A stretch of 64,000 bases of DNA from Massilia sp. 9I (GTDB lineage: Bacteria > Pseudomonadota > Gammaproteobacteria > Burkholderiales > Burkholderiaceae_D), in assembly GCF_902506415.1 (NCBI RefSeq), contig NZ_LR733275.1:3939856-4003855 (forward strand). Direction: 5' to 3'. Shown in pieces: positions 24,815 to 27,678 of the stretch. Every line of letters begins with the position of its first letter. Position 1 is the first letter of the stretch. A program made the translations under genes and the position numbers. Below the pieces are notes generated by a model. It saw nothing but the letters and a program-made list of their open reading frames with translations, did not search any database and was not told where the DNA came from.

Positions 24815-25273
24815 ATGCCCGCACCCCAGCTCAGCCTGAAAGGACGCGCGCTTCGATTCCTGTCGATGCGCGAACACAGCCGGCTCGAGCTGGGCCGCAA
24901 GCTGGCCCGTTATGCCGAGGAGGGCGATGACGTGGAAGCCCTCCTGGATTTCCTTGAAAAGAACAACTGGCTGTCGCAGGAACGGTTTGCCGAATCCCTG
25001 ATCAACAGGAAGGCGGGCCGTTTCGGTAATAGCCGCGTGATGGCCGAGCTGCAAAGCCACGGCATCAAAGGCGAAGCGTTGGACGACATCAAAGCCTCGC
25101 TTGCCGACAGCGAAATGGCGCGTGCCTCCGAAGTGTGGCAACGCAAGTTCGGTACCGTCGCCGCCGATGCGGCCGAGCGTGCCAAGCAGATGCGCTTCCT
25201 GCTGCAGCGTGGTTTCTCCCAACGCGCTGCGCGGATCGCCATGCAGGGCGCTCCCGACGACGACGAGCTGTAG
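24815..25273 (+). CDS. recX: Regulatory protein RecX
   Basis: The 152-residue protein consists of three-helix repeats typical of Rec[24 protein letters not shown] at the N-terminus, [35 protein letters not shown] in the middle (about 50-85), and [20 protein letters not shown] at the end. RecX binds RecA filaments and limits their growth and ATPase. It starts seven bases after recA and is almost certainly on the recA transcript. Confidence 0.93.
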
Positions 25274-25374
25274 CAGGCCACGCCTGCTGCATCGACGAGC
25301 CGGCCTGGCCCCAGGCTGCTCCGACGATATGCCAGGCTTGGCCGCAGGCCTGCTATATCACCCCAATATTCCCT

Positions 25375-25390
25375 GCTTCTATATAGAAGC
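25375..25390. repeat. Perfect 16-base palindrome
   Basis: The site reads GCTTCTATATAGAAGC and is fully symmetric. It could be a protein-binding site or the tip of a hairpin. It is about 100 bases after recX and has no U-tract, so it is not a terminator. Confidence 0.7.
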
Positions 25391-25399
25391 ATCGCTCCG

Positions 25400-25474
25400 G
25401 CGCCAGCGTGGAGCGTCATCTCCGATATGCCTCCGGCATATTCCTCAACGGACGATGGCGCTGCACGCTGGCGC
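25400..25474. repeat. Long imperfect inverted repeat
   Basis: The outer arms GCGCCAGCGTG (25400-25410) and CACGCTGGCGC (25464-25474) are exact complements. Inner arms continue with AGCG-CATC matches. A central hairpin ATATGCC-TCC-GGCATAT lies at 25425-25441. The whole could form a stem of about 75 bases. It resembles a REP-like element or a degenerate miniature transposon more than a gene part. Confidence 0.65.
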
Positions 25475-25750
25475 TTGTCCGTTTACCCCTCCAACAAAGC
25501 CGCTGCTGCTCGTAGGGTGGCCTGGGCGGCCCCGGGCTTATCCCAAAACGTCGATCACCCAACAAGATCTGCGCCGCCCACGCGACGACCCCTTGCACCT
25601 GCACCCGAAAATAGCTCATCAATTGGTCCGGCCGCCACCGAAACCCGTCCAGCCACCTGCAACATTGTTCACTCGGCAAAAAAATTTACTAATGTAGTTT
25701 CCGTAAGGCAAAAACCTCTCTGTTGCAGTGCAACCCAGAACTCCCTGTGC

Positions 25751-25756
25751 TAAACT
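25751..25756 (+). promoter_or_regulatory. Putative extended -10 promoter of the RNA element
   Basis: TG-C-TAAACT (25748-25756) fits an extended -10 box. Transcription would begin near 25763, just before the first stem of the RNA element below. No clear -35 is seen at the standard distance. Confidence 0.4.
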
Positions 25757-25763
25757 TTCACGG

Positions 25764-25867
25764 TTTAAGCAGCGCCGCATGAGCGGTTGTTGTCGTAGAA
25801 GCTACGTCAACGTGCATGAAGCACACTGGCTGCACCACTAACCGCCGCGCAAGCGGCATTGGTTTTT
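25764..25867 (+). ncRNA. Candidate small structured RNA or cis-leader upstream of DUF2889 gene
   Basis: About 100 bases can fold into a compact three-way junction. Stem P1 is GCGGTT (25783-25788) with AACCGC (25840-25845). Arm A is GTTG-t-CGTAG-AAG-CTACG-t-CAAC (25789-25811). Arm B is GTGC-ATGAA-GCAC (25812-25824). A third hairpin, GCCGC-GCAA-GCGGC (25844-25857), shares two bases with P1 and is followed by TTTTT (25863-25867), like an intrinsic terminator. The T-run directly touches the ATG of the DUF2889 gene. It could be a free small RNA with its own terminator, or an attenuator that couples P1 to termination. I do not recognise it as a known riboswitch. Confidence 0.5.
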
Positions 25868-26437
25868 ATGCCCCTGTCTCCTCCCGTATCGCGCTCGCTC
25901 CGGCATACGCGCGCCATCACCGTCGAAGCCTATGCGCGCGACGATGGCCTGTGGGATCTGGACGCCAGTATCCGCGACGTCAAAACCCGTGATATCGAGC
26001 TCGGCTCCGGCATTCGCCCGGGCGGCCAGCCGGTGCACGACCTCAAACTGCGTGTCACCATCGACCGCAACCTGACCATCGTGGATGCGGAAGCTGCGTC
26101 CGATGCCGTTCCGTATCCCGGTTTCTGCGAGACGATAGTCCCAGCCTACAAAAAGCTGGTCGGCCTCTCGCTCATGAACCATTTCCGGCTGCACCTGAAA
26201 GACCGCCTCACCGGCGTGCTCGGCTGCACCCACTTGACCGAATTGGCCCAGGTGCTGCCCACCGCAGCGCTGCAGGCCTTTGCCGACGACGTCTTCGACG
26301 AACGTGGCGACGCCGACGCTAACAAAGGCGCGGCCGAACGGCCCTTCGAGCTCGACCGTTGCCATGCGCTGCGCAGCGACGGACCGGCCGTGGCCACCTA
26401 CTATCCCCGCTGGTCCATCAAAGCCGTGTCGGGTTAG
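25868..26437 (+). CDS. DUF2889 family protein
   Basis: The 189-residue protein starts MPLSPPVSRSLRHTRAITVEAYARDDGLWDLDASIRDVK, the typical DUF2889 N-terminus. It continues with GQPVHDLKLRVTIDRNLTIVDAEAASDAVPYPGFC and HLTELAQVLPTAALQAFAD. The function is not established. No signal peptide or membrane segment is seen. There is no Shine-Dalgarno sequence: the five bases before ATG are TTTTT, preceded by a GC-rich hairpin, so expression may depend on the RNA element. sucC follows 71 bases later. Confidence 0.85.
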   Translation: MPLSPPVSRSLRHTRAITVEAYARDDGLWDLDASIRDVKTRDIELGSGIRPGGQPVHDLKLRVTIDRNLTIVDAEAASDAVPYPGFCETIVPAYKKLVGLSLMNHFRLHLKDRLTGVLGCTHLTELAQVLPTAALQAFADDVFDERGDADANKGAAERPFELDRCHALRSDGPAVATYYPRWSIKAVSG

Positions 26438-26508
26438 GATTCGATGTTTGTCATTTTTTGTAATTTCAACCGTATTTCTAATTCAGTAATAGAAGAAGGG
26501 AAGCCAGC

Positions 26509-27678
26509 ATGAAAATCCATGAGTATCAAGGCAAAGAGATCCTCCGAAAGTTCGGAGTGACCGTTCCGCGCGGCATTCCGTGCATGAACGTGGAAGAGGC
26601 GGTCAAGGCCGCTGAAGAGCTGGGCGGCCCGGTCTGGGTCGTCAAGGCGCAGATCCACGCCGGTGGCCGTGGTAAAGGCGGCGGCGTCAAGGTTGCCAAG
26701 TCGCTGGAACAGGTCAAGGAATACGCCGACCAGATCATGGGCATGCAGCTGATCACCCACCAGACCAGCCCGGAAGGCCAGAAAGTCCGCCGCCTGCTGA
26801 TCGAAGAAGGCGCCGACATCAAGCAAGAACTGTACGTTTCGCTGGTCACCGACCGCGTCACCCAGAAGATCGTGCTGATGGCCTCGTCGGAAGGCGGCAT
26901 GGACATCGAAGAAGTCGCGCACAGCAACCCGGAAAAGATCCACAACGTCGTGATCGAACCGTCGATCGGCCTGACCAATGAGCAAGCCGACGACGTCGCC
27001 CGCAAGATCGGCGTGCCGGAAGGCTCGATCGCCGCAGCCCGCGCCAACCTGCAAGGCCTGTACAAAGCCTACTGGGAAACCGACTGCTCGCTGGCCGAAA
27101 TCAATCCGCTGATCGTGACTGGCGACGGCAAGGTCATCGCCCTGGACGCCAAGTTCAACTTCGACCCGAACGCCCTGTTCCGTCACCCGGAAATCGTCGC
27201 CTACCGCGACCTGGACGAAGAAGATCCGGCTGAAGTCGAAGCCTCGAAATTCGATCTGGCCTACATCTCGCTCGACGGCAACATCGGCTGCCTGGTGAAC
27301 GGCGCCGGCCTGGCCATGGCCACCATGGACACCATCAAGCTGTTCGGCGGCGAGCCGGCCAACTTCCTGGACGTGGGCGGCGGCGCAACTGCCGAGAAGG
27401 TCACCGAAGCATTCAAGATCATGCTGAAGAACCCTGGCCTGAAAGCCATCCTGGTCAACATCTTCGGCGGCATCATGCGCTGCGACGTGATCGCCGAAGG
27501 CGTGATCACCGCATCCAAGGCCGTCTCGCTGAAGGTGCCGCTGGTCGTCCGCATGAAGGGCACCAACGAAGACCTGGGCAAGAAGATGCTGGCCGATTCG
27601 GGCCTGCCAATCATCGCCGCAGACACGATGGAAGACGCAGCGAAGTCGGTCGTCGCCGCTGCTGCTGGCCAAGCCTAA
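26509..27678 (+). CDS. sucC: Succinate-CoA ligase (ADP-forming), beta subunit
   Basis: The 389-residue protein starts [17 protein letters not shown]. It contains the ATP-grasp region ([20 protein letters not shown], about 44-63), the metal site in [18 protein letters not shown], and the CoA-ligase part ending [17 protein letters not shown] near 320. With SucD it converts succinyl-CoA to succinate with formation of ATP in the TCA cycle. AAGGGAAG precedes the ATG. sucD follows after 17 bases. Confidence 0.98.

Follow-up and report, generated by a model that had tools for sequence, protein, structure and literature searches.

Small RNAs that derive from 5' untranslated regions (UTRs), or that arise by attenuation, are a general known kind, and the RNA motifs called sucA and sucC precede genes of the tricarboxylic acid (TCA) cycle elsewhere. 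Here we describe an RNA element that abuts the start codon of a DUF2889 gene in Massilia sp. 9I and that persists at the same locus in related genomes from which this gene is absent. The window, that is, the whole stretch of DNA analysed and the frame of all coordinates below, comprises 64,000 nucleotides (nt) of contig NZ_LR733275.1 (positions 3,939,856 to 4,003,855). With 5'-UTR-derived and attenuated small RNAs the element shares a presumed promoter of its own, a structured RNA, and a terminator-like hairpin ahead of a start codon; it differs from them in outliving the downstream gene and in having a terminator that is not family-wide.

Several described RNAs invite comparison. A Herbaspirillum seropedicae table (PMC7011215) includes the sucA motif (RF01070) and four entries for the Betaproteobacteria toxic small RNA (RF02278), and PMC2864571 gives the sucC motif (RF01759) for gamma-Proteobacteria as well as a Burkholderiales-1 motif that carries no Rfam accession. 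The sucA and sucC motifs recall the present RNA in being named for TCA-cycle genes; at the present locus, however, DUF2889 intervenes before sucC, and neither motif matches the window or six relatives at gathering score, or 25650-25950 at E up to 10. RF02278 is likewise a beta-proteobacterial small RNA, whereas the RNA described here is present as one copy at this locus, with weak further matches, and has no match in Rfam. The Burkholderiales-1 motif is a candidate RNA of the same order, and the two may be identical.

A search of the window and six relatives against Rfam 15 returned no match at gathering score, in agreement with the original prediction, which recognised no known motif. Two sub-threshold matches (25650-25950, up to E 10) fall outside the RNA, within the DUF2889 gene. 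No description of the RNA was found in a literature search whose scope lay outside supplementary small-RNA lists, including that of PMC7011215, and there is no report of it in the available parts of PMC4520260, PMC7253759, PMC7011215, PMC4603805, PMC2864571, PMC6337395, PMC3521395, PMC11109978, and PMC8632094. It appears to be an undescribed member of the structured regulatory RNAs, and its evolutionary history is unusual.

On comparative evidence, the element is a conserved structured RNA. We read it, with a probability of about 0.5, as an independent regulatory RNA that shares the promoter of DUF2889, serving as a leader and probably also as a small RNA. Its parts and the adjoining gene, all on the plus strand, are as follows.

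25722 to 25734, plus strand: palindrome GTTGCAGTGCAAC, a possible -35 region or operator, 13 nt ahead of the extended -10 element.
25748 to 25756, plus strand: extended -10 element TGCTAAACT in the presumed promoter of the RNA, of the form TGnTAnAmT conserved in leaders.
25763 to 25768, plus strand: putative start of the transcript, at about 25763, with its unpaired 5' end, placed by spacing from the -10 element and by sequence.
25769 to 25773 with 25829 to 25833, plus strand: P1, closing stem GCAGC/GCUGC of a four-way junction, with pair probabilities of about 0.99.
25774 to 25778 with 25783 to 25787, plus strand: P2, a hairpin of the minimum-free-energy (MFE) fold that is additional to the earlier drawing.
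25789 to 25798 with 25802 to 25811, plus strand: P3, in the MFE fold and with two-sided changes.
25812 to 25815 with 25821 to 25824, plus strand: P4, in the MFE fold and with two-sided changes.
25837 to 25867, plus strand: terminator-like end in the window, with a GC hairpin (25844-25857), an optional lower stem (25837-25841/25859-25863), and a T-run (25863-25867).
25868 to 26437, plus strand: DUF2889 gene (PF11136; Pfam E 3.3e-40) of 189 amino acids, from the open reading frame (ORF) listing, starting right behind the T-run.

The stretch 25763-25867 folds at -43.4 kcal/mol (z-score -3.26), a value equalled by none of 200 shuffled sequences; the wider stretch 25751-25880 is less striking (z-score -1.96, with 7 of 200 shuffles as good). 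The four-way junction (25769..25833) is the MFE structure of all but three (L034, L038, and L039) of 12 leaders that were folded, and when prefixes of the growing strand are folded it forms earlier than the 3' hairpin. The original prediction had drawn a three-way junction closed by GCGGTT/AACCGC. Its two arms lie where it placed them (25789-25811 and 25812-25824, the regions of P3 and P4), whereas its closure is not favoured over P1: the pairing 25783-25788/25840-25845 has a probability near 0, and forcing it costs 6.6 kcal/mol.

Leaders for comparison (L002-L081) were taken from named genomes scanned with the DUF2889 protein, as the best 80 of 117 loci. A junction alignment of 33 rows holds the window and L002-L047 minus L034 and L037-L039, which are of the rod type described below, and minus rows identical from the junction onward; an extended set of 30 hand-picked rows (27 distinct) joins ten from the earlier set to twenty from other genomes. 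The shuffle tests applied to these alignments, and to that of the rod type, ignore the relatedness of the sequences; controls in which the structure is slid have far fewer paired cells. Among the 33 sequences, 97.3% of the cells of the junction plus 3' hairpin are paired, and two-sided changes occur in seven pairs, five of P3 and two of the 3' hairpin, as many as in none of 500 shuffles. The covariation score is also reached by 0 of 500, and a weaker measure, further pair types, by 31 of 500. P1, P2, and P4 show no two-sided change in this set, P1 and P2 being paired throughout. In the 27 distinct sequences of the extended set, all 377 cells of P1, P2, and P4 are paired, and two pairs of P4 (four cells) change on both sides (covariation 0 of 500 shuffles, further pair types 158 of 500); P1 and P2 vary on one side at most, here as before. 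The compensatory changes by which the original prediction proposed to check its fold are thus found in both arms and in the 3' hairpin. For its closing stem the outcome is mixed. Across the 33 sequences GCGGTT/AACCGC pairs in 84.3% of cells, a figure that rises to 86.4% for the version slid by +3; only one of its pairs has a two-sided change, and it is energetically disfavoured; its covariation score (0.176) exceeds that of every slid version, and because only 3 of 500 shuffles match it, GCGGTT/AACCGC may be a minor or alternative pairing at most.

A 20-codon frame beginning in the P2 loop (25779) could in principle be translated as a small protein or leader peptide, since it is open in the window and close relatives. 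This we regard as barely credible: many of the 46 relatives have a frameshift, a stop, or no ATG in it, no ribosome-binding site is seen by eye, and the changes in P3 preserve pairing. A leader-peptide attenuator was rejected along with it, the reading frame not being conserved among these 46.

The RNA stands ahead of the DUF2889 ATG in all 46 of the leaders L002-L047 and in L053, and no complete copy was seen by eye in the remaining 33 of the 80 loci. Carriers include Massilia, Telluria, Janthinobacterium, Duganella, Rugamonas, and Noviherbaspirillum. Two covariance models, R1 and R2, were run on 294 genomes drawn evenly from the family. R1 matches 203 of them, in 22 of 44 genera, and R2 matches 189; together they match 209, or 208 without G142, whose fetched match (L159) lies off the locus. 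The wider order was searched with R2 alone: of 300 genomes it matched 9, of which seven are members of the family and neither of the other two is convincing. By eye these two look like a coding stretch and a palindromic repeat, with none of recA, recX, DUF2889, or sucC nearby, and they appear to be chance matches. The RNA seems to be family-specific. It occurs once in the 5.5 Mb source genome. In a search for second copies (30 genomes, E up to 1), extra matches score far below a strong main match, and the gap is small where the main match is weak (G004, G142, G022, and others). The extra loci retrieved (L157 and L160-L169) and the match of G142 (L159) have no recA, recX, DUF2889, or sucC, and as copies we rejected them, taking them as chance. 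A plasmid search gave no match to the RNA, and viral contigs gave one exact match of 18 bases.

The evidence that carries our reading is the fate of the RNA where DUF2889 is missing. DUF2889 matches 220 of the 294 family genomes (E up to 1e-5), so that the sample divides into 182 genomes with both, 27 with the RNA only (26 without G142), 38 with DUF2889 only, an upper bound because the models miss diverged leaders such as L190, and, by subtraction, 47 with neither (48 with G142). Eighteen leaders of the DUF2889-only genomes were read, and several have a similar -10 element without the RNA. A leader of DUF2889 should always lie upstream of the gene it regulates; the RNA persists where DUF2889 has no match, in 26 of the 294, and is kept independently of its neighbour. 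In the 15 of these 26 loci that were read, sucC lies downstream of the RNA, at a distance of 182-462 nt, and DUF2889 is gone or has left end fragments only. Nine genomes of one genus (L116, L122-L129) lack DUF2889 or hold N- and/or C-terminal fragments of it between the RNA and sucC.

Mean identities are quoted here for four stretches in turn: the promoter with the RNA, the DNA between RNA and sucC, the upstream DNA, and sucC itself. Among RNA-only genomes they are 88.6, 64.4, 43.5, and 94.2% in nine of group g40; 85.7, 30.6, 42.1, and 89.4% in four of g32; and 100, 88.4, 56.5, and 98.3% in two of g26. Among genomes with DUF2889 they are 89.7, 72.1, 39.6, and 88.4% in five of g32 and 75.1, 71.4, 32.7, and 90.8% in five of g40. 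On a sucC tree of 32 hand-picked loci, the label "no DUF2889" takes four changes, at least three of them forced by well-supported branches. The count alone does not separate loss from gain; the gene fragments that remain in g40 point to loss there. Retention of the RNA after loss of DUF2889 implies that it does something beyond DUF2889, and for this reason a small RNA sharing the DUF2889 promoter is preferred. The original prediction had offered a free small RNA or an attenuation switch: the structured RNA is supported, and a switch purely specific to DUF2889 is disfavoured by this retention.

Retention would also be explained if the RNA were the leader of an entire DUF2889-sucC-sucD operon and tuned sucCD, an account that we consider improbable. 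In the window, sucC begins 71 nt after DUF2889; the RNA stays upstream of sucC in all 15 DUF2889-less loci read, and in L139 and L151 no terminator-like site lies between the two. In L137 and L138, however, a hairpin with T7 stands between the RNA and sucC, so the RNA there is probably no sucCD leader. A pattern scan from RNA to sucC finds sense-strand terminator-like sites in both and one in L107 (when both strands are counted, L137, L138, and L107 have 3, 4, and 2 sites, against 0.5, 0.6, and 1.0 expected). The DNA between RNA and sucC is, moreover, poorly conserved in the DUF2889-less loci of g40 and g32, and the lack of Rfam sucA and sucC matches at gathering score also speaks against this account.

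The architecture of the RNA is itself variable. Thirty leaders, mostly from other genera, have a similar -10 element, 5' end, P2, and P3, and in them closure is possible as a rod, GCCGCAU/AUGCGGC, often followed by U. In the alignment of these 30 rows (L115 was missed by the selection pattern; L151, L154-L156, and L158 were omitted by choice), 97.3% of cells are paired and 49 cells are two-sided, a number reached in 0 of 500 shuffles; most of these lie in P3, and the closure has one pair with 12 such cells. None of the 500 shuffles attains the covariation score, and 15 attain the weaker measure, further pair types. P2 is paired in 100% of cells of the rod-type leaders, and because its 5' strand is also that of the rod closure, two states are possible. 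A further reduced RNA is found in L155, L156, and the Massilia-like G113 (L152), the first two retaining by eye only P2, P3, and a short tail before the ATG.

It is conceivable, though we think it a long shot, that the functional core lies at the very start of the transcript and consists of an often present short U tract followed by P2 and P3 at a near-fixed distance from the promoter, the remainder having been rebuilt repeatedly as a four-way junction, a rod, or almost nothing. Such a core might act on the transcribing RNA polymerase, as the put RNA of phage HK022 reportedly does, or bind a protein peculiar to the family; a single element could then serve as a leader, as a small RNA, or in both roles, irrespective of the gene downstream.

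The extended -10 element that the original prediction placed just before the fold is borne out: all 47 leaders (the window and L002-L047) have TGnTAnAmT 100-135 nt ahead of the ATG. The palindrome upstream of it, a possible operator or -35 region, follows a pattern present in 19 of the 47 (GTTGC-n1-2-YGCAAC at 13-14 nt from the -10 element). The 5' end is a U run in many other genera; a T5-T6 run lies right behind the inferred +1 in many of their leaders (L107, L108, L113, L156), the window having TTT only. T runs at +1 resemble slippage promoters sensitive to uridine triphosphate. Of the 34 loci L048-L081, which include the RNA-bearing L053, 24 have a -10 element of the form TGnTAnnnT no more than 170 nt ahead of DUF2889, a count to which no chance level is attached, and because of it the promoter may predate the RNA.

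At the other end of the element, the GC hairpin is followed in the window, five bases on, by TTTTT (25863-25867) adjoining the ATG at 25868, as had been claimed, and by eye no Shine-Dalgarno site precedes that ATG. A terminator abutting the start codon is nevertheless not general: the T-run before the ATG has at least five T in 19 of 48 leaders and at most three in 29, the U-run being lineage-specific, and by eye L155, L156, and L152 have no terminator-like 3' end. The hairpin itself is widely conserved, with 91.5% of its cells paired and two pairs two-sided (33 sequences).

These features suit a cis leader of DUF2889, riboswitch-like or protein-bound, in which junction and hairpin would set read-through or translation at the abutting ATG. 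This explanation, which we judge possible though on balance unlikely, accounts for the close abutment and for the shortened leaders of L155, L156, and L152, and is in keeping with the presence of the RNA before the ATG in every one of L002-L047 and with the conserved hairpin. The conservation of both P2 and the rod closure on one 5' strand, together with the weak covariation of GCGGTT/AACCGC, is also suggestive of two states. Against it stand the 26 genomes that keep the RNA at the locus without DUF2889, with strong conservation in two groups, the 38 in which DUF2889 has no detected RNA, and the differences in T-run between genera.

In the independent regulatory RNA that we prefer, the element, which starts near +1, would be transcribed from its own conserved promoter, and in the species of the window some or all transcripts would probably stop where the hairpin and T-run precede the DUF2889 ATG. 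Transcripts that terminate, or are processed, within or beyond the leader would give a small RNA of about 105 nt, and read-through would yield DUF2889 mRNA. The RNA itself is under selection beyond any effect on DUF2889, and hence would most likely also act in trans as a small RNA. Several observations weigh against this interpretation. Wherever DUF2889 is intact among the loci read, the RNA abuts the ATG or is no more than a few tens of bases away from it, as expected of a leader; the shortened RNAs of L155, L156, and L152 show no terminator by eye; and no hairpin with T-run follows the RNA in L122, L139, L150, and L151, all without DUF2889. In the window, a strict sigma-70 scan of 25250-26600 finds no promoter, and the terminator pattern occurs there at chance frequency (2 found, 1.4 expected). 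The U-run is short in most leaders, as noted above. In g40 genomes with DUF2889, the promoter plus RNA (75.1%) is barely more conserved than the gene-holding DNA behind it (71.4%), and L190, RNA-negative by the models, has by eye a diverged relative of the RNA. Finally, P1 has no two-sided change in either junction set, so that the case for its closing the junction comes from invariance and energy.

The neighbourhood of the RNA in the window consists of recX (24815-25273) upstream and, behind DUF2889, sucC and sucD, all from the ORF listing; recX, sucC, and sucD were named from their translations and DUF2889 by Pfam. Among named relatives, the DUF2889 protein is closest to one from Massilia alkalitolerans (93% identity).

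For the family, the finding means a structured RNA, outside Rfam, in about half of the sampled genera by R1. The loci at which the RNA was retained after its neighbouring gene decayed are natural experiments, and a single RNA locus is seen to take the form of a cloverleaf-like junction in some lineages and of a rod in others, with its -10 element, 5' end, and two hairpins staying constant.
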